NCBI GenBank assembly: GCA_016284295.1
Contig: JAEEOP010000006.1
Location: forward strand, 62,001 to 126,000
Origin: Methanomassiliicoccaceae archaeon
GTDB lineage: Archaea > Thermoplasmatota > Thermoplasmata > Methanomassiliicoccales > Methanomethylophilaceae
Direction of reading: 5' to 3'
Length of the DNA stretch: 64,000 nucleotides
The notes beneath the pieces were generated by a model. It searched no databases and was not told the DNA's origin. It saw only the letters and a list, made by a program, of their open reading frames with translations. Position 1 is the first letter of the stretch; every line of letters begins with the position of its first letter. The translations under genes were made by a program, and so were the position numbers. Positions 1-54,173 of the stretch are shown piece after piece.

Positions 1-3000
1 TGCCTGGAGTTCGACCTCGATCTCGGTGATTCCGTACTGCAGATATCCGTACTCGAACTTCTCGTAGTATTTGTTGAACTCTGCGATCATGTCCTCGATC
101 TGTGCGTCGGTGTACCTGTCCATGGATCCCCTGAGGGTCATCAGGACGTTGTATGCGGACCTGAGGTCCTTGACGCAGTCGGGTGCGTCGTCTCCGAAGG
201 AGGCGATAGCGGTCTCGAGCTCGGGTATTACGATATCGAGGGTCATCTTGAGAGAGTCCCTGTCGATGGCGAACTCTGCCTCGATGATGTCCCTGATCTC
301 CTGGAAGTAGGGAGACATGTCGATTCCCTCGATGGCGGCTCCGTACTGTCCGATCGCTGCGGCGACGGTCTTGACCTCTGCGATGATCTTGTCGATCTGA
401 GCGAGTATGACGGGCCTGACCTCATCGTCGATGTAGGTCTCTGCAAGCTTCTTCAGCTTGTTGAGCTCGTCGATGACGAGCTGGAGCTCGGAACCGATCA
501 TCTTCTCGATCTCCTGTCCGTCGAAGAACTCCGTGATCGCTGCCTTGACGTCGGCGATCGCGAGGGGCTGGATCTTGTCCGAGAATGCCTTGAGCTGTTT
601 GAGCGCGTTCTCGATGATGGGCTGGTACTCCTTGGGGATATCGCTCTTTGCGACATCGTATGCCAGCTTGGCGTTGTCATAGAACGACTTGACGCCTGCC
701 TTGAGCTTGGTGAACTGCTCCTCGGTGGGGAGGGAGGTGTTCATGAAATCCTTGATCTGCGCCTTGAGTTCAGGGATGTAGGTGAAGTAGTTGTCGGGGT
801 TGGCTGCGACATCGGCGACATATCCGGCGATGGCATCGATTCCGGCAAGGGTCTTCTTGCACTGGTCGGCAACGTACTGTGCGAGGGTCTGCTTCTCCTT
901 GTCGATCTGCTCGGAGAACTTCTCCACAGCTGCGGAGAGGTCGTTGACTGCCTTAGCAGCGGCGGCCTGCACGTTCTTGCATGCGGTCTCTGCGTTGTCC
1001 ACGAGCTTCAGGAGGTAGGCTTTCAGGTCGAAGTTCTCGATGTAGTCCGCGAGGGCGAGCATCGAGGCATCGGTGTCGGACTCTACTCCGCCCATGATCG
1101 CGATGAGCTCGGGATCGGACAGAGGCATGTCCTTTGCGAGGGTTTTGAGCTCCATGGCGGCGTTCTCGTCTCCTGCGAAATAGGAGTCGACGATGGCCTG
1201 GAGCTTGTCGATGAATGCCTGGACATCGATCTCGTCGAAGTCGTCGCCCATTGCTGCGAGGGTGTCGGCGAGGGTATCGAGGGTGTCGAGGACAGGCTGG
1301 ACGGATTCGGTGATGTACGCCCTGAACTCTGCGGAGTCGACGTACGCCTTGGCCTGCTCTCCGAGGGCCCTGACCTGCTCTGCGACGGCCTTGATCTCCT
1401 TGGCGAGCTCATCCTCGATCGCAGTGCTTTCGAGGTATGCGATGATGTCGGCCTTGATCTTGGTGATGTCGACCTTGTTGAAGGAATCCACGATCGCCTT
1501 GAGGTCGGCGACAGCCTTGGCGGCCGCCTCCTTGTACTCCTCAGGGATGACATCCTTGCATGCGTCGTAGGTCTTGAGGACTGTGGCGTAGAGCTGGTTG
1601 ACGAGTATCTTGAGCTGGCTGACCTGCTTTTCGGTGGGGAAGTCGTTCTGGACGATCTTCTTGATCTGGGCCTTGAGCTCTGCGATGTGGTAGAACTTGT
1701 CCATGTCCTGGGCGGTGGATGTGATGAAGTCGGCAAGAGCGCCGGGCAGCTGGGCCACGCTCATGCACTGGGCGATGATGTTGTCGACGTATCCGAGAGC
1801 GACCTGGTCGACCGCTGCGGATGCCTTGTCCAGTGCGGACACTACGGAGACGATTCCTGCTTCGATAGCCTTCTGGAGGATGTCGATGGATGCGTCGAGG
1901 ATCTGCTTGACATCGAAGAGATCGGGCTCGCTGGCGATGTAGTCGTTGAGCTTGTTCTCGGCTGCCGTAAGGTCAGCAATGATCTCGTCGAGCTCTGTTC
2001 CCTCGTAGTGCAGCTCGGTCTTCAAGTAATCGTTGAGGATCTGGAGCGAGTTGGCGGATACCTTGAGAACCCAGCTGCAGTCCTCGAGGACTGCCATCTC
2101 CAGGTCCTGGAGGGCGGATGCGAGCTTCATCTCGGATTCGGGTGCTCCCTCTCCGAGGATCTCCTTGATGATTGTCTTGATGACATCGAGTGCGTACTCG
2201 ACCTGCTCGTTCATGTACGGGCGGTAGTCCTGGTAGATCGCGTCGATCTCGTCCATGATGGGCTTGATCAGGGCCTTCGCGTCGTCGGCGTCCATGTCGT
2301 TGAGCTTCTTCTGGATGTTCTGGAGCTCTGCGATGATCTCTGCGATCTCCTGGTCGACCTTGATGGAGTTGAGTGTGTCGAGGATGGAGTTGAGGACTGC
2401 CTGGTAAGCATCGTCGACATACTCGCCGGATGCGATACCCTTCATGACGTCGTCCCAGTTCTCGTAGAGCTTCTGTGCGAACTGCTCGATGACTGCGGAT
2501 TCGTCGAGCATGTTCCTCTTGGACTCAAGGAGAGCCGCGAGGATCTTTCCGTAGAGCTGTAAGGAGTACTTCTCGTCCTCCAGGAACTGGATGGCGTTCT
2601 CGATCTCCCTCTTCTCTGTGGGGGACAATCCCTCATCCTCGAGCATCTTCTCGAGAGCGGTGATGACCTGCGCCTTGAAATCGAGGAAGTATTCGTATGC
2701 GTCGTCGACGTTTCCCTTGACGTCAAGGTATGCGTCTCCGATCGCGGCGTTGACGATGGTATCCCAGTTCTCGTCGAGGTATCCGAGCATCTCGCGGAGC
2801 TTGTCGGTGACGACCTTGATGGACACCTCCTTGTACTCCTGGAGGGTGTCGTCGATGGTCTTGGCGGAATCCGGGTCCATGAATGCGGGGTATCCTGCGG
2901 GCTTCTCCATCACCTTGTTCGCGGCGATGAACTCGTAGAGGTAGCCTGCGATGAGCGCGTGGTCGGCCTCGCTGGGGTGAGCGAGGACACCGTTGGCGGA

Positions 3001-4425
3001 GATGTATCCGATGTAGAGGTTCATCAGGGCCATCTCGCCTCCGGTGAACTTGATGGTCTTTCCGGGGGAGACGATCGTGCAGTCTCCAGTCCTCTCGTCG
3101 ACTGCGATGCTGCAGTCTCCGACGGTGAAGACTCCGATGGCCTCCTTGATCTTGGGACCGAGGACGTTCATGATGTCTCCGATGTCGGAGATAGAGGACA
3201 GGTCGATGTTGTTGCTCTGGACGACGTATTGGATGAACTCGGAGAACTTGAAGCTGATTCCGTCGATGAGGTCGTACATCACATAGCCGTTGGCGGGGAT
3301 GATGCTGCTGGTACCTGCCCTGAGCGCGGTGGGATCTGCGTTCTGGAGAAGAGCGTAGGCAACCATGTTCTTGACCTCGTTGGGTGCATTGGCCCCATCG
3401 TCGACGATGTAGGCTGCATACGATGCCGGGTTGTCGACATTGACGTGGTACGTCATCATGGAGTAGGGCGAGATGTACTGGGCGTACAGGTTGCAGTACT
3501 CCTGAACGACTCCGTAGAGCTGTCCGAGTGGAACGGTCACTCCGTTGCAGACAATGTTGATGTTACTGAAGTAGTTGGTGGAATCGAGCACGATGACCTT
3601 CGCTTTGGGGTTCGCGGAGAGGATGTACTTCATGTTGTTGTCGAAGCTGGAATCGTAGATGGTGATCGCATACGCGGTCGCACTGATAATTCCGGACAGG
3701 GCATCAAGGACCTTTTCGGTCTGCGCGGGGCTGATTCCTGCCTTCTGCACGAGCTTGACGATGTGTCCGGAGATGAACTCCCTGGCGTCGTCCATCATCT
3801 GCATGAGCTCGGCGTCGTAGAACAGGTCGAACTGCTCCTCAGGGATCTCTCCATTGATGATTCCCTCGATCATCTCCATGTAGGTGTAGGTGAAGTCCGA
3901 GTTGAACTGGTATGTGATGATGTCCGCCTGCTTGATGGAGTCCTGGTAGTACTCGCGGAGTCCGGACAGCGACTTCTCGTATCCGGGGACGTTGAAGTTC
4001 TTCAGCGCACCGGTGTTGCCGTAAAGTCCGACAAGGGATACGGGGATGACTTCGTTGACGGTGACGGAATCACCATCGAATCCATCCTCGAGCATATACC
4101 TCAGGTCGAGGCTGCGGGTGCCACTGACCGCAAGCTGGCGGTAATCGACATCGTATCCCTGCGACTCGAAGAGCTTTGCAAGGAGCGAGGGGTAGTTGTT
4201 TTCGAGTTTGACCTCGAAACCATAGTAATCATAAGCGTTCTCGGGATAATACTCTGTCACCCCGTAGCCGTTGACCGCCGAATCTCCGAGAGCGACGTAG
4301 TTCAGAGTCCCTTTGGACTCGTCCGCCGCGTCCCCGTTGGGGGCAGCCAACAGCGTGGCGTTCGCTGCAAGCATTACGAATACAGCGAATACTGCCATTG
4401 ACTTGATCAATGTTGTCTTTCTCAT
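1..4425 (-). CDS. Giant secreted SGNH/GDSL-hydrolase-like protein with long C-terminal helical tandem-repeat region (partial, runs off left edge; >=1475 codons)
   Basis: ATG complementary to 4423-4425. The frame (plus-strand triplets 1-3, 4-6, ...) has no stop down to base 1. N-terminus MRKTTLIKSMAVFAVFVMLAANATLLAAP is a signal peptide. YVALGDSAVNGYG matches GDSL block I; FNSDF is block III-like; HPSEADHALIAGYLYEF is block V-like (catalytic His). The remainder is Ala/Lys/Asp/Glu-rich helical sequence. Confidence 0.85.
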   Translation of the reverse strand, partial: MRKTTLIKSMAVFAVFVMLAANATLLAAPNGDAADESKGTLNYVALGDSAVNGYGVTEYYPENAYDYYGFEVKLENNYPSLLAKLFESQGYDVDYRQLAVSGTRSLDLRYMLEDGFDGDSVTVNEVIPVSLVGLYGNTGALKNFNVPGYEKSLSGLREYYQDSIKQADIITYQFNSDFTYTYMEMIEGIINGEIPEEQFDLFYDAELMQMMDDAREFISGHIVKLVQKAGISPAQTEKVLDALSGIISATAYAITIYDSSFDNNMKYILSANPKAKVIVLDSTNYFSNINIVCNGVTVPLGQLYGVVQEYCNLYAQYISPYSMMTYHVNVDNPASYAAYIVDDGANAPNEVKNMVAYALLQNADPTALRAGTSSIIPANGYVMYDLIDGISFKFSEFIQYVVQSNNIDLSSISDIGDIMNVLGPKIKEAIGVFTVGDCSIAVDERTGDCTIVSPGKTIKFTGGEMALMNLYIGYISANGVLAHPSEADHALIAGYLYEFIAANKVMEKPAGYPAFMDPDSAKTIDDTLQEYKEVSIKVVTDKLREMLGYLDENWDTIVNAAIGDAYLDVKGNVDDAYEYFLDFKAQVITALEKMLEDEGLSPTEKREIENAIQFLEDEKYSLQLYGKILAALLESKRNMLDESAVIEQFAQKLYENWDDVMKGIASGEYVDDAYQAVLNSILDTLNSIKVDQEIAEIIAELQNIQKKLNDMDADDAKALIKPIMDEIDAIYQDYRPYMNEQVEYALDVIKTIIKEILGEGAPESEMKLASALQDLEMAVLEDCSWVLKVSANSLQILNDYLKTELHYEGTELDEIIADLTAAENKLNDYIASEPDLFDVKQILDASIDILQKAIEAGIVSVVSALDKASAAVDQVALGYVDNIIAQCMSVAQLPGALADFITSTAQDMDKFYHIAELKAQIKKIVQNDFPTEKQVSQLKILVNQLYATVLKTYDACKDVIPEEYKEAAAKAVADLKAIVDSFNKVDITKIKADIIAYLESTAIEDELAKEIKAVAEQVRALGEQAKAYVDSAEFRAYITESVQPVLDTLDTLADTLAAMGDDFDEIDVQAFIDKLQAIVDSYFAGDENAAMELKTLAKDMPLSDPELIAIMGGVESDTDASMLALADYIENFDLKAYLLKLVDNAETACKNVQAAAAKAVNDLSAAVEKFSEQIDKEKQTLAQYVADQCKKTLAGIDAIAGYVADVAANPDNYFTYIPELKAQIKDFMNTSLPTEEQFTKLKAGVKSFYDNAKLAYDVAKSDIPKEYQPIIENALKQLKAFSDKIQPLAIADVKAAITEFFDGQEIEKMIGSELQLVIDELNKLKKLAETYIDDEVRPVILAQIDKIIAEVKTVAAAIGQYGAAIEGIDMSPYFQEIRDIIEAEFAIDRDSLKMTLDIVIPELETAIASFGDDAPDCVKDLRSAYNVLMTLRGSMDRYTDAQIEDMIAEFNKYYEKFEYGYLQYGITEIEVELQA

Positions 4426-6011: not shown

Positions 6012-7697
6012 TCATTCATTGACGATTCTACCCTCGTCGATCCTTATGACGGTGTCCGCCTGATCGATGAGGGCGAGGTTGTGACTGATGATGAGGACGG
6101 TACGCCCGTCCACCCTGTCCTTGAGCCTGTCGAAGATGGTCTGCCCGGTGATGGGATCGAGACCTGCGACCGCCTCATCGAGAATCAGAATCTTGGGGTC
6201 GCTCAAGATCGCACGGGATATGGCGAGCATCCTCCTCTGGGCCAGGGGCAGACGATTCATCTCGTTTCCTATGCGGGTCTCGTAGCCGTCTGTGAGCCTT
6301 CCGACGTAATCGTCCAGTCCGGTCAGCCTGCAAACGTCCAGGAACGTCTCCTCGGATACGCCTTCCATGTTGTACAGCACGTTCTCCCTGATGGTACCCT
6401 CGAAGGTCCAGGGGTTCTGGAGGACGGCGACCAGCCTGTGGCTGAGGTCCTTCCTCGGGATTGTCCTGATCTCCCTGCCGTCTATCTCTATGGATCCGGT
6501 GTAGTCGGAATAGAATCCCATCATCAGGTTCGCAAGGGTCGTCTTCCCGGAGGCGGTAGGACCGACCAGGGCCGTGATCTTCCCGGGCTCGATGTCGAAA
6601 GACACCGAATGAATGATCTCCCTGCCTTCGACGTACGAGAACGACACGTCCCTGAAGCTCACACGGCCCTCGCCCATCACGAACCCGTCATCCTCGGACG
6701 GGACCTCCTCGTCGGGCTCCTCCAGCACGTCGAGGATCCTCTCGAGGGAGATGATCTCCTCGCGCATACCGTCGAAGACCGTCACGGTCATCAGCAGGGG
6801 GGAGTTGACCAGCCTGACGTAGATCAGGAACGACAGGAACATTCCCACCGGCATGGATCCGCCGTAAATCAGCAGGACGCCTGCTATGACGGTCACCAGG
6901 TACCCTATGTTCGCCATGATGCTGACCACGGGCGCGATCATCCCGGTGCGGGTGTTGGACCTGATGAACGCCTCGGTGAACTCGTCATTGTAGAGGGTGA
7001 ACCTCTTCTTCACGACCTCCTCCATGTTCTCCGCCTTGATGGTCTTGTGAGCGGAGATTATGTCGCTCATCTGCGTGTTCAGTTCGGCGACCGCTGCCTT
7101 CTGCCTCCTGTAATCATCCTCCGAATCGCGGATGAGGTATCTGATGATGAGGACGGTTATCGGCATCAGTATGGCATACAGGATCGCCAGGATGGGGCTG
7201 GTGATGAACATCATGATGAAGATTCCGATGATCATCGTGAAATGCACTATGAATCCGATGTAATCGTTCGATATGAGCTTCGAGACCGCAGGCATGTCCG
7301 CGGTGAAACGCGACGACAGGTCCCCGGGTGGCATCCCGTCGATGTAGCTGATCGGGACCCTGAGGAGCTTATCGTTCATCTCGTTCCTCATCCTCCTAGC
7401 GGTCTGCAGCGACATCTTGCTCATGATGTTCTTGGAATGGCAGGTCATCACATACCAGAGCACCACCAGGAGGATGATGAACGTGCACAGGTCCAGCAGC
7501 ATGGAGAGGTCCAGCGCCTGGACCGTGTCGGGCGACACCAGCCAGTCCAACACCCTTCCGCAGAAGTATGGGACCACGCTGAGTATGACCGTTGCGGCGA
7601 AGGACAGCATGATGCATTTCCTCATGAGGTACTTGTCGTCGCCCACGTAGTCCTCCAGACGCCTCAGGACGATGGTGCTCTGCGAGATCATGCCCAT
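6012..7697 (-). CDS. ABC transporter, fused TMD-NBD half (heterodimer partner with intact Walker A)
   Basis: Six-TM domain; Walker A GPTASGKTT; degenerate signature LPLAQ; Walker B ILILDEA; H-loop ISHN. Confidence 0.9.
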   Translation of the reverse strand: MGMISQSTIVLRRLEDYVGDDKYLMRKCIMLSFAATVILSVVPYFCGRVLDWLVSPDTVQALDLSMLLDLCTFIILLVVLWYVMTCHSKNIMSKMSLQTARRMRNEMNDKLLRVPISYIDGMPPGDLSSRFTADMPAVSKLISNDYIGFIVHFTMIIGIFIMMFITSPILAILYAILMPITVLIIRYLIRDSEDDYRRQKAAVAELNTQMSDIISAHKTIKAENMEEVVKKRFTLYNDEFTEAFIRSNTRTGMIAPVVSIMANIGYLVTVIAGVLLIYGGSMPVGMFLSFLIYVRLVNSPLLMTVTVFDGMREEIISLERILDVLEEPDEEVPSEDDGFVMGEGRVSFRDVSFSYVEGREIIHSVSFDIEPGKITALVGPTASGKTTLANLMMGFYSDYTGSIEIDGREIRTIPRKDLSHRLVAVLQNPWTFEGTIRENVLYNMEGVSEETFLDVCRLTGLDDYVGRLTDGYETRIGNEMNRLPLAQRRMLAISRAILSDPKILILDEAVAGLDPITGQTIFDRLKDRVDGRTVLIISHNLALIDQADTVIRIDEGRIVNE

Positions 7698-9427
7698 GTT
7701 CCGTTCCTCCTCTGTCCGACGCTGCAGATGTCCTTATAGAGCTGGGACCTGGAAAGCAGTTCCTCATGCGTGCCCGAGTCCTGGATCCTGCCCCTGTCCA
7801 TCAGGATGATCCTGTCGGATACCATGCATGTCGAGACGTCGTGCATTATGAATACGACCGCCTTGTCCCTGCAGACGTCCATGATCGTGCTCAGGACCTT
7901 CCCCTTGGTCACCTGGTCGAGGGAGAAGAAGCAGTCGTCGAAGATGTAAAGGTCCGAATCGTGCAGGAGGCAGCGGACCAGGATCATCTGCAGCCTCTGA
8001 CCCCCGGACATGGAGGACGAGTCGCTGGTGATGGCGTGGTCCAGCCCTCCGGGGAGGCCTGAGATGAACTTCCCTATACCGATGCGGTCGCACAGCGCCA
8101 TGATCTCCTCGTCGGAGTGCTCCCCCTTCGGGTCGAGGTTGAAGCGCACCGTCCCCCTCATCACGCTCATGTTGTTCCCGGCGTACGAGACCACAGACCT
8201 TATCCTGGACGGATTCGCTCTGCCGACCTTGAGGCCCGCGATGTGCATCTCGCCCGAATCCGGGGCACTGAATCCCATGGCGATGCTGAACAGTTCGGTT
8301 GCGCCGCTCCCGTTCATGCCGACCATGGTGACCTTCTCCCCCCTGGCGATCGTCAGATCGATGCCGTTCAGGATGTGGTTGCCCCTGGTATCGACCTTGA
8401 CCATGTCCTTGACCTCCACCATTGGGGTGTCGGGGTCCGCGGGCGAATCCATGTAGATGACCGATTTGGATTTCTTGCCTGCGGCGATGATGGAACGTAT
8501 CCTGTCGAAGCAGATGCGGGCCCTCGGCTCCTCCACGCTCAGATAGGGGATGATCGTCAGGGTGGCGATCATCGTGGTCGCGTACTGCATGAATATGATG
8601 ATCTCCTCGGGGATGATCTTGCCGGTGCCGCTCAGCGCGGAATCCAGGAATATGAAGATGACGAAGATCCACATGACGGCGGTGGCGATATGAGGGAGGT
8701 AGTAACTGTTCATCAGCAGCCTGCGGTTGAAACCGCCGAACTCGGTGCTGGCCTCTCCGAATCTCCCTATCTCGTGCTCCATGCCGTTGAAGGCCCTGAT
8801 CGTACGGGCGCCTGTGACCTTCTCCTTCAGGAGGTTGTTGACCCTGTCCTGGGCGGTGATCTGAAGATTGTAGAGATGCTGGATGCGCTTGGACAGCAGC
8901 AATGTGACGATGGTTATGGCCACCATCATTATCAACAGGATGAGCCCGACCGTATCGTTGATGTCGAACGTGAAGTAGAACAGCAGCGCCAGCAGGAACG
9001 GCATCGGGAGGTATGTCCTGAGCAACTCAAGGATGAACTTCTCCACTATGGTCACATCGGTGGTCAGGCTGCTCATCGCCAGGGTGGATGTGTTCCCGAG
9101 CCTGCTCATATCCTGCATTTCCAGGGTGGCCCTCATTATCCTCATCCTGAGCTCGTTGGACACGCCCGAGGCTACCTTGGATGCTAGGAACGAGGTCACG
9201 GCGATGACCGCCAATGATATGAAAGTGAACAGAAGGAGGTATGCGCCCATCGCCAGGATCTCGTTCAGGTCGCCTTCGTTGACGGCGATGTTGATCATCG
9301 GCTTCAGGATGGTGATGGCCTCCACCTGCGCGATGGCGCCCAGGACCTGGATCGCCACTATGAAAGCGAGGGTCCACCTGTACGGATGCAGAAGTCTGTT
9401 TATGCTCCTGTCACGGTCCTTGTCCAT
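7688..9427 (-). CDS. ABC transporter, fused TMD-NBD half (degenerate Walker A)
   Basis: TMD plus NBD; Walker A region GMNGSGATE (no Lys); signature MSGGQ; Walker B LYIFDDC; H-loop IMHD; overlaps the downstream gene by 10 bp. Confidence 0.9.
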   Translation of the reverse strand: MDKDRDRSINRLLHPYRWTLAFIVAIQVLGAIAQVEAITILKPMINIAVNEGDLNEILAMGAYLLLFTFISLAVIAVTSFLASKVASGVSNELRMRIMRATLEMQDMSRLGNTSTLAMSSLTTDVTIVEKFILELLRTYLPMPFLLALLFYFTFDINDTVGLILLIMMVAITIVTLLLSKRIQHLYNLQITAQDRVNNLLKEKVTGARTIRAFNGMEHEIGRFGEASTEFGGFNRRLLMNSYYLPHIATAVMWIFVIFIFLDSALSGTGKIIPEEIIIFMQYATTMIATLTIIPYLSVEEPRARICFDRIRSIIAAGKKSKSVIYMDSPADPDTPMVEVKDMVKVDTRGNHILNGIDLTIARGEKVTMVGMNGSGATELFSIAMGFSAPDSGEMHIAGLKVGRANPSRIRSVVSYAGNNMSVMRGTVRFNLDPKGEHSDEEIMALCDRIGIGKFISGLPGGLDHAITSDSSSMSGGQRLQMILVRCLLHDSDLYIFDDCFFSLDQVTKGKVLSTIMDVCRDKAVVFIMHDVSTCMVSDRIILMDRGRIQDSGTHEELLSRSQLYKDICSVGQRRNGTWA

Positions 9428-50269: not shown

Positions 50270-51010
50270 TCATAGAAGGTGCGAAAGGAACTCCTTCACA
50301 TGCGGATTGCCGTTGTCTCCGAAGAACTCCTCCGGAGTGCAGTCGGCCTCGACCACTCCGCCCTGGAAGAGCATGACGCGGTCGGCGACCTCTCTGGCGA
50401 ATCCCATCTCATGGGTGACCACGACCATGGTCATACCCGTGTCGGCGAGGTCCCTGATGATGTTCAGGACCTCCCCTACCATCATCGGGTCCAGCGCGGA
50501 CGTGGGCTCGTCGAAGAGCATCACATCGGGATTCATTGCAAGCGCACGCGCTATGGCCACACGCTGCTGCTGTCCTCCCGACAGTTTCATCGGATAGGTG
50601 TCCGCCTTGTCCGCCAGGCCTACTCTCTTAAGGAGCTCGTCCGCTCTTGCCGAGGCCTCCTCCTCAGTCATCACCTTCAGCTTAACCGGCGCGAGCATGA
50701 TGTTCTTCTTCACGGTCATGTTCGGGAAGAGGTTGAACGATTGGAACACCATCCCGATCTTCTCCCTCAGCTTATTAGGGGTGACCGATCCGTCGAGGGT
50801 GTTCGTCCCTTCGAACAGGATCGTTCCCGACGTGGGGGTCTCCAGGAGGTTGATGCATCTCAGGAACGTGGATTTACCGCATCCCGAGAGACCTACCACT
50901 GCTACGACCTCTCCTCTCCTGACCTGCGTCGTTATGCCCTTCAGGACCTCCAGGTCGCCGAAGTACATGTGCAGGTCCTTGATATCAAGCAAAACTTCAT
51001 CTGTAGGCAT
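50270..51010 (-). CDS. Polar amino acid ABC transporter ATP-binding protein (GlnQ/HisP-like)
   Basis: [53 protein letters not shown]. Confidence 0.95.
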
Positions 51011-54000
51011 TGTTCAACCTCCTCTCCAATCTTCCGACAAGATACTGAAGAATCAGGACTATCACCAGATAGATCAGCGCCACACCGATCAGCGGCACGA
51101 ATGCGCTGTAAGTCTGCGCCCTGATAAGCATGGCCGCCTTGGTAACATCGATGATTCCGATGTATCCCGCGATCGAGGTCTCCTTCAGCAGGGATATTCC
51201 TTCGTTGCACAGCGCAGGCAGGATGTTCCTGAACGCCTGCGGCAGGATGACCGAGAGCATGGCCATATTGAATGTCATTCCCAGACTCTCCGCGGCCTCC
51301 AGCTGTCCCTTGGGCACCGCGTTGATTCCGGCACGGACGATCTCCGCCACATACGCTCCCGAATTGATTCCGAAAGCGATACCTGCGATCAATATCGAGT
51401 TCAGACCCGACGATGCGAACACCACGAAGTAGATGATCAGCAGCTGGACCAGGATAGGCGTACCGCGTATGACGGTGATGTACACCTTCGCGATCGCGTT
51501 GGGGATCTTGAACCTGCCACGGAGATCGTGGAACGCCCTCACGATTGCGCACAAGATACCGATCAGGAGACCGATCGCCAGACCGATGATGGTGATGTAC
51601 ACGGTGTTCTCGAGACCCATGAGGATCAGCTGGTAACGGTCCTTCTCCACGAAGTTCTTGATGATCTCGGACCATAGCCACTCGAACCAGTTCTGGTCAC
51701 CGCCGTTGCCGCCTCCTTCTGAAGAGGTGTAGTGGTCTATGACCTGTATCTTCTCCAGCTCCTCGGGATGCGCGGAGAAGTATCCGGGCTTCTCCGGATC
51801 GTAGCTTATGCTTCCGTAGTAATCGAAGATATCGTCGATGATGCCCTCGCTCTTCAGGAATGCCATCGCCCTGTTGACGTACTCCAGGAGCCTGGTGTCC
51901 TGCTTGTTCAGCACGAAGGCGTACTCCTCCGCTTCCGCTCCGGGGAGCTCGACCTTAAGGATCGTCAGCTCGTCCGGATGCGCCTCCACGTAGGACACCG
52001 CGACGAGGTCGTCGAGGATGGCGAATCCCACATGCTTGGTGAGTACGCTCTGGACAACTTCTGTATAAGTGTTGAAAGGCGAGACGTTGGCGTCGCCGTA
52101 GACCTCCGCGGCCAGATAGTATCCTGTGGTACCTGATTCGACGGCGATCTTCGTTCCCTTGAGGTCCTCCCATGTGGTGGCCTTCGCAAGGGGGCTGTCC
52201 TTCAGGATCAGGACGTTCTGGTATGCGACAGCGTAGGTGTCGGAGAAGTTGATCATCTCCTTCCTCTCGTCGGTGACTGTGAATCCTGATGCACCGACGT
52301 TGTACTGCTTGGCCTGGATCGCGTTGATGATGGAATCGAACTCCATGAAGTTGAAGTTCACATCGCAGTCGAGGGTGTGCGCGATGGCCTTCCAAATGTC
52401 CATGTCGATCCCCTCGAAGTCGGTGGACACCAGATAGTCGTATGGAGGGAAGTCGGGGTTGGTCACGACCTCGAGCGTCTCCCTCATCTGTCCGGGGATG
52501 TAATGCACCAGGACCTCCAGATCCTGGAGCTTCTCCGGATGGGCGGAGTAGTATCCCGGCTTGGAGGGATCGTATCCGATCTCGCCGTAGTACTTGTAGA
52601 TGTCATCGATGACCCCTTTGCCGTAGAGGTACTGCATCGCCTTGTTGGTGTATCCAAGGAGTTCGGTGTTGCCCTTGTTGAACACGAACGCGTACTGCTC
52701 CGCCTCCGCTCCGGGAAGTTCCAAATCGACGATGGTGAGATTGCTGTTCGCCTCCACATACGACTCTGCCACCAGGTCGTCCAATACGGCGAATCCGGCA
52801 TACCCTGTCAGAACGCTCTGGATGACCTCGGTGTACGTGTTGTACGGGAACGTGGATGCGTCCCCGAACAGATCCGCCGCGAGGTAGTATCCTGTCGTAC
52901 CGGATTCGACGGCGACCTTGGATCCCTTAAGGTCCTCCCAGGACTTGGCAGCTGCCAGCGGGCTGTTCTTCATGACGAGGACGTTCTGATGCGCGACCGC
53001 GTATGTGTTCGAGAAGTTCACCATCTCCTTCCTCTCGTCGGTGACTGTGAAACCGGATGCACCGACCTCGAACCTGTTGGACTGGATCGCGTTGATGATC
53101 GAATCGAACTCCATGAAGTTGAAGTTGACGTTGCAGTCGAGTGTGTACGCTATGGCCTTCCAGATATCCATGTCGATACCCTCGTAGGAATTGGACACCA
53201 GGTAGTCATACGGAGGGAAGTCCGGGTTGGTGGCGACCTCGATTGTGTGCTTGTCCGTGGGCTTGTAGTGCGTCACGAAATCGATCTTGTCCAGATTCTC
53301 GGGATGCGCCGTGAAGTATCCGGGCTTATCGGGATCGTATCCGATCGAGCTGTAATAGCCGAAGATGTCCGATATGACGCCGGTGCCCGTAAGGTAGTCG
53401 AGCGCCTTGTTGGCGTGCTGGAGCATCTGGACGTTGGACTTGTTGATCACGAAGGCGTACTCCTCGACCTCGTCGCCCGGGAGCGAGACGTCCAGGATCT
53501 TCAGGCTGGAGTACTTCTCGGCGAAGGACTCGGCAACAAGATCGTCCAGCACGGCGAATCCCGCGTAGCCGGACACGACGCTCTGGATGACGTCCGTGTA
53601 CGTGTTGTACGGGAGGACGTTGGCGTCACCGAAGTCCTCGACCGCCAGGTAGTATCCCGTGGTGCCAGATTCTACTCCTACCTGCCTGCCCTTCAGATCC
53701 TCCCAGTCGGTCACCGTCGATAGGGGGCCGTCCTTCAGCACGAGAACCACCTGATGGGCCACGGAATAGGTGTTCGTGAAGTTGATCTGCTGCTTCCTCT
53801 CCTCTGTCACTGTGAACCCGGAGGCCCCGACATCGTACTTCCCCGCCTCTATGGCGTTTATGATGGAATCGAAGTCCATCACGTTGAAGTTCACGTTGCA
53901 GTCCAGAGCCTTGGCGATTGCCTTCCAGATGTCCATGTCGATACCCTGGTAGGTGTCGGACCACATGTACTCGTATGGAGCGAAGTCCGGGTTGGTGACC

Positions 54001-54173
54001 ACTTGGATGGTGTATCTGTCATCCGCCGCGTCCTCCTGCGGGAGCAACGCGATACCGGCGATGACTGTCAGCACCAAGACAGCGGCCACGACCATTGTCT
54101 TTTTCTTGCCGAACAAATTATCTCGACCTTTCCGCACGGGCGGAGCTATTGCTGGATGATATCGAATGGCCAC
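50997..54173 (-). CDS. Polar amino acid ABC transporter: three tandem substrate-binding domains fused to permease
   Basis: Three PBP domains, each with TNPDFxPYxY, [11 protein letters not shown], [12 protein letters not shown] and [11 protein letters not shown], then HisM-like permease ([16 protein letters not shown]...[27 protein letters not shown]). Confidence 0.95.

Follow-up and report, generated by a model that had tools for sequence, protein, structure and literature searches.

A Ser-His dyad without the Asp is known among the SGNH esterases of family CE2; SpOatA carries a Ser in block II, and in PatB1 a block II Arg acts as oxyanion donor (PMC9487903). In host-associated Methanomassiliicoccales, giant proteins built of Listeria-Bacteroides repeats count as adhesion factors (PMC7883539). 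Our literature search, outside which most subscription journals lay, found no description of an SGNH protein of Methanomassiliicoccales.

In the usual picture of methylotrophic gut methanogens, methyl compounds and hydrogen support their growth, and exported carbohydrate-directed enzymes are few. The locus described here lies in a 64,000-nucleotide stretch of DNA (the window), which corresponds to positions 62001-126000 of a 178.6-kb contig in a draft genome of 1.86 Mb and 45 contigs. Since McrA was found in this genome, the host is a methanogen, as had been supposed from the sequence at the outset.

Results

A giant gene on the minus strand

The first-pass annotation had claimed a hidden giant protein of at least 1,475 aa, encoded in a minus-strand frame that runs open from an ATG at 4425 to base 1 of the window. 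Reading of the ORFs confirmed the frame, which is also open 5' of the ATG, up to 4584, and extension of the contig to the left supplied the stop codon that was to be sought there: the gene continues for 1,610 bases past the window edge to a TGA at L002:8390-8392 (flanking sequence L002), giving a product of 2,011 aa, with aa 1-1475 inside the window (Table 1). Pyrrolysine-type TAG readthrough at the gene end was dropped, as the stop codon is TGA.

Opposite the gene lie antisense ORFs of 1,396 and 480 aa, and these, together with the draft state of the genome, would speak for the open minus frame being an assembly or reading artefact, or for an antisense ORF being the true gene. We regard this as extremely improbable, because codon usage favours the minus frame along its whole length and thus marks it as a real coding gene and not a chance one: it scores +0.48 to +0.66 bits/codon in the head, both tail halves and the C-terminus, compared with 0.3-0.6 bits/codon for most neighbouring genes, -0.6 to -0.9 for the other sense frames and only 0.12 for the 1,396-aa antisense ORF. 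Moreover, the gene is located mid-contig, and more than 40 proteins can be aligned to the head in this frame. The artefact or antisense reading is already refuted in practice, and the long antisense ORFs are by-products.

Giant exported proteins are normal in this host, since its genome gave 37 matches to Flg_new, the Listeria-Bacteroides repeat, on ORFs of up to 6,066 aa; with a single SGNH-like match in the whole genome, the other giants lack an SGNH head. Four ORFs of about 4,000-6,000 aa (L078, L079, L082, L083) have Listeria-Bacteroides repeats and no C-terminal membrane helix. The same-strand gene 5' of the giant gene encodes a YczE/DUF6198-like membrane protein that shows no clear functional link to it. 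Two adjacent ABC exporter half-transporters also lie upstream on the same strand (window 6012-9427, minus). Elsewhere in the window, a 1,058-aa ORF (50997-54173, minus) apparently combines, by reading, three tandem amino-acid-type solute-binding domains with an ABC permease; it resembles GlnPQ, but with three binding domains.

Table 1. Features of the giant gene and its product, in window coordinates
Feature	Position	Strand	Basis or remark
Giant gene, in-window part (aa 1-1475)	1..4425	-	remainder L002:8390-10000, left of window
Signal peptide (aa 1-~28), MRKTTLIKSMAVFAVFVMLAANATLLAA	4342..4425	-	sequence; hydrophobic maximum 2.2 (19-aa Kyte-Doolittle)
Predicted SGNH-fold head (aa 40-511), large helical insertion	2893..4308	-	Pfam, AlphaFold2, Foldseek
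Block I Ser49 (GDS)	4279..4281	-	invariant, 41/41 relatives (alignment)
Block II AVSGTR (aa 99-104)	4114..4131	-	alignment of 41 relatives
Block III region TYQFNSDF (aa 171-178)	3892..3915	-	Asn one residue before canonical place
Block V His483 (HPS)	2977..2979	-	invariant 41/41; no Asp at -3
Helical stalk (model), in-window part (aa 512-1475 of ~512-1745)	1..2892	-	repeat self-comparison; structure model
Partial stalk repeat copy (aa 659-779)	2089..2451	-	repeat self-comparison
Stalk repeat copy (aa 817-1089)	1159..1977	-	repeat self-comparison
Stalk repeat copy (aa 1116-1391)	253..1080	-	repeat self-comparison

The head is predicted to adopt an SGNH fold

Sequence and hydrophobicity bear out the signal peptide that had been noted at the N-terminus. 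The head behind it gave weak Pfam GDSL matches that scored below the cut-offs (21.2 vs 32.9 and 19.1 vs 23.6 bits); the head of a relative, L034, clears the SGNH cut-off (50.8 vs 32.9 bits). A PDB sequence search with the head gave nothing significant, it was unmatched among phage records, and NCBIfam had no match to the head or the C-terminus. An AlphaFold2 model of the head, computed on a 41-sequence alignment, reached pLDDT 77 and pTM 0.82, and in a Foldseek search the best five PDB matches, which are those under E 0.001 (E 4e-5 to 9e-4), came without exception from GDSL/SGNH esterases or lipases. Their target-normalised TM of 0.55-0.64 points to a core shared with SGNH proteins and to large insertions in the head. 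In the model, Ser49 stands directly after strand 1, and His483 sits where a loop connects the final pair of long helices in the domain, the same placement of Ser and His as in SGNH proteins. Judged by the predicted structure, the head is an SGNH fold, which is what had been proposed for the first ~510 aa.

A conserved Ser-His dyad without the usual Asp

We compared the active-site motifs in an alignment of 41 relatives, 19-34% identical to the head. The GDSL-type block I had been called correctly, with the Ser of GDS kept in every relative. The block V assignment stood for its His, which is likewise universal and always occurs as HP, but not as a canonical block V, since the Asp of DxxH, replaced by Val480 in the giant protein, is absent three residues ahead in all 41 relatives. 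FNSDF, which had been read as a plausible block III, has Asn175 one position ahead of the canonical one, where no Asn stands. Most bacterial relatives have GxNNF as block III and some have GN[ASG]xF, and the archaeal branch of the giant protein shows FNSDF, FHFDF and FHYDF. In block II, the oxyanion Gly is Gly102 in the giant protein and mostly Ser or Ala in the relatives, 93% of which conserve Arg104.

Since dyad members of the superfamily are known (PMC9487903), the missing DxxH Asp bars the head from the canonical triad class and not from the superfamily fold, and the precedents of the CE2 dyad, the SpOatA block II Ser and the PatB1 block II Arg make activity possible. The displaced block III Asn means, in turn, that oxyanion stabilisation must differ or that activity may be lost. 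In the second SGNH-like domain that several bacterial relatives carry (see below), Ser is lost in 8 of the 11 block I motifs found, whereas no head in the alignment has lost its Ser or His, which argues that the head dyad is under selection. The head represents a non-canonical SGNH family that lacks the Asp and probably has a Ser-His dyad.

A long repeat-bearing stalk and a surface-type C-terminus

The stalk (aa 512-1745) has a low content of Pro and Gly, and a single-sequence structure model predicted it to be helical throughout, though at a pLDDT of 46 that allows the word helical alone and no bundle type. Self-comparison revealed diverged repeats of ~300 aa, in which aa 817-1089 matches aa 1116-1391 and of which a further partial copy lies outside the window at about aa 1500-1617; the best pair (aa 913-1071 vs 1216-1373) shares 30% identity at E 7e-24. 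As a control, we shuffled the tail 20 times and obtained 10 off-diagonal matches in total (E<=1e-3), compared with the 32 listed for the one real tail, so that the weakest repeat pieces would not count alone. The earlier description of a low-complexity-like helical stalk is thus right about a very long and, in the model, helical tail, but the tail holds diverged repeats instead of low-complexity sequence. A search of 102 family genomes with the tail matched only itself. Pfam names such as Baculo_PEP_C and ATG17_like were matched below cut-off, as is typical of any long helical protein; these names also came up for the bacterial stalks, and homology was rejected.

The C-terminal ~200 aa resemble surface domains. 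A MucBP-like domain narrowly misses the Pfam cut-off (22.6 vs 23 bits), and a Listeria-Bacteroides repeat is matched weakly (Flg_new, 10.4 bits, below its cut-off of 27). These domains support the class of surface enzyme or adhesin to which the first-pass annotation had assigned the protein. The C-terminal anchor that the leftward extension was expected to reveal did not appear, as a hydrophobicity scan found no membrane helix at the C-terminus, and Pfam detected no dockerin in the protein. In 18 other family genomes, we found ORFs that contain relatives of the C-terminal region, and many of these ORFs are giant.

Head relatives in gut bacteria and archaea

A scan of 31 genomes of the genus found clear head relatives in four other genomes. 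Three of these relatives, L004, L005 and L006, measure 542 aa and are 33-35% identical to the head; these three and the archaeal L009 have a membrane helix at the C-terminus. In all three genomes, L004, L005 and L006 lie immediately 5' of an acyl-CoA-synthetase-like gene (motif TGGTTGxPKG, by reading). A GTDB scan, which works via short peptide patterns and is not a census, yielded 46 loci with head relatives, most in gut Bacillota (Clostridia, Ruminococcus, Oscillospiraceae, Lachnospiraceae) from the guts of ruminants and other herbivores; the named archaeal ones belong to Thermoplasmata/Methanomethylophilaceae. Many bacterial relatives are 1,000-1,670 aa long and consist of a head, a helical stalk (e.g. 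L033, L034, L041, L045, L048) and an anchor, frequently with a second SGNH-like domain ahead of the anchor. The anchors found were dockerins in L010, L015, L033 and L034, an SLH region in L037 and, by reading, a membrane helix in L012 and L013. Such anchors behind the stalks point to display on the cell surface or in a complex. One architecture recurs in gut Clostridia (L010, L015, L021, L033, L034), namely a head on a helical stalk with a further, mostly degenerate SGNH-like domain and a dockerin, and we found no description of it.

In a tree of the heads, built by a quick method with SH-aLRT supports only and no outgroup, the head of the giant protein clustered with two archaeal heads (support 100), while four other archaeal heads stood beside five Ruminococcus heads (support 100). 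The well-supported branches require three or more switches from one domain to the other, and the tree indicates that the head has been exchanged between bacteria and archaea inside gut communities, with no direction of transfer given because an outgroup is lacking. The second set of archaeal heads (L020, L025, L031, L035), ~570-630 aa long and beside the Ruminococcus heads, has GAS in place of GDS.

Discussion

The chances are about even, in our judgement, that the giant protein is an exported non-canonical SGNH ester hydrolase whose head is presented on the distal tip of a long helical stalk. The signal peptide would export the protein, the stalk would keep the head at a distance from the cell, and the C-terminal domains may tie the protein to its own cell surface, or to mucin or partner cells. 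Ser49, assisted by His483 in a dyad that lacks the usual Asp, would attack an ester. Its target would probably be an O-acyl group, carried either by a carbohydrate or by a surface polymer of a neighbour. That the head would act as a hydrolase on glycan or cell-surface esters is our best reading. In its favour are the AlphaFold2 model, the five best Foldseek matches, which are all esterases or lipases, the retention of Ser49 and His483 in all 41 relatives beside the Ser lost from most second copies, the L034 head that clears the Pfam cut-off, the anchors of the bacterial relatives, the MucBP-like domain and the dyads known from CE2; against it are the sub-cut-off Pfam scores, the shifted block III Asn, the missing C-terminal anchor, the low pLDDT of the stalk model and a stalk repeat found in no other of the 102 family genomes.

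The main rival is a dead, binding-only head, in which the SGNH fold would serve as a lectin or adhesin module of a protein that is as a whole an adhesin for host mucus, plant particles or partner bacteria. With the block III Asn and the block V Asp both missing from their usual places, MucBP- and Listeria-Bacteroides-like domains at the C-terminus, and a genome rich in giant repeat proteins of the adhesion-factor class (PMC7883539), this is a real possibility, but one that we doubt on balance: constant Ser and His in the heads next to the frequent loss of Ser in the second copies would be unexpected for a pure binding domain. Alternatively, the protein might be a secreted esterase that is not cell-bound, with a tail that serves as a spacer and either self-assembles (coiled bundles) or gathers released enzymes, as in the dockerin-bearing bacterial relatives. 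We consider this unlikely, for although the lack of a C-terminal membrane helix and the dockerins of several bacterial relatives would suit it, the giant protein itself has no dockerin, and its archaeal cousins L004-L006 and L009 do end in a membrane helix.

A conserved exported SGNH head on a giant stalk, from a family otherwise seen in gut Clostridia, would mean that these methanogens act directly on glycans or other cells, or hold on to them, and that stalked SGNH parts were passed from one domain to another within the gut; the giant protein may exemplify enzymes or adhesins common to gut bacteria and archaea. More broadly, and only tentatively, we suggest that Asp-less SGNH enzymes on giant helical stalks form a gut-associated family, not described before, which gene exchange would have made common to gut Clostridia and Methanomethylophilaceae. 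Methanogens would use these enzymes to edit the acyl groups of glycans of host, plant or partner-cell origin. If true, such editing is a capacity not usually attributed to Methanomethylophilaceae methanogens. The conserved dyad without Asp and the stalked forms common to gut Clostridia and methanogens interest us most, and the head family is widespread enough for tests in culturable bacteria.

Compared with the SGNH/GDSL superfamily (PF13472, PF00657), the head shares the predicted fold, the GDS nucleophile block and the block V His; it differs in the universal absence of the DxxH Asp, the variable block II Gly across relatives, the block III Asn that is shifted or missing in its branch, its large helical insertion and its sub-cut-off score. 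CE2 carbohydrate esterases likewise have the SGNH fold, several with a Ser-His dyad (PMC9487903), and CE2 structures (2w9x, 2waa, 4xvh) are among the lower-ranked Foldseek matches of the head, a likeness that is structural, with no sequence similarity shown. Gut Clostridia have stalked SGNH proteins, as yet uncharacterised (e.g. L033, L034, L010, L015, L021), that share the signal peptide, head family and long helical stalk. Unlike the giant protein, they also carry a mostly degenerate second SGNH-like domain, together with either a dockerin or an SLH region; the stalk of the giant protein is longer and bears repeats, and its C-terminus is MucBP/Listeria-Bacteroides-like. Its short archaeal relatives L004-L006 share the head and have a single C-terminal membrane helix and no stalk. 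With the Flg_new giants of Methanomassiliicoccales (PMC7883539), found in the same genome and family, it has related C-terminal domains in common, and it differs from dockerin-bearing cellulosomal enzymes, as some of its bacterial relatives do not, in having no dockerin. The giant protein belongs to a known fold family, rather than to a new kind of system.
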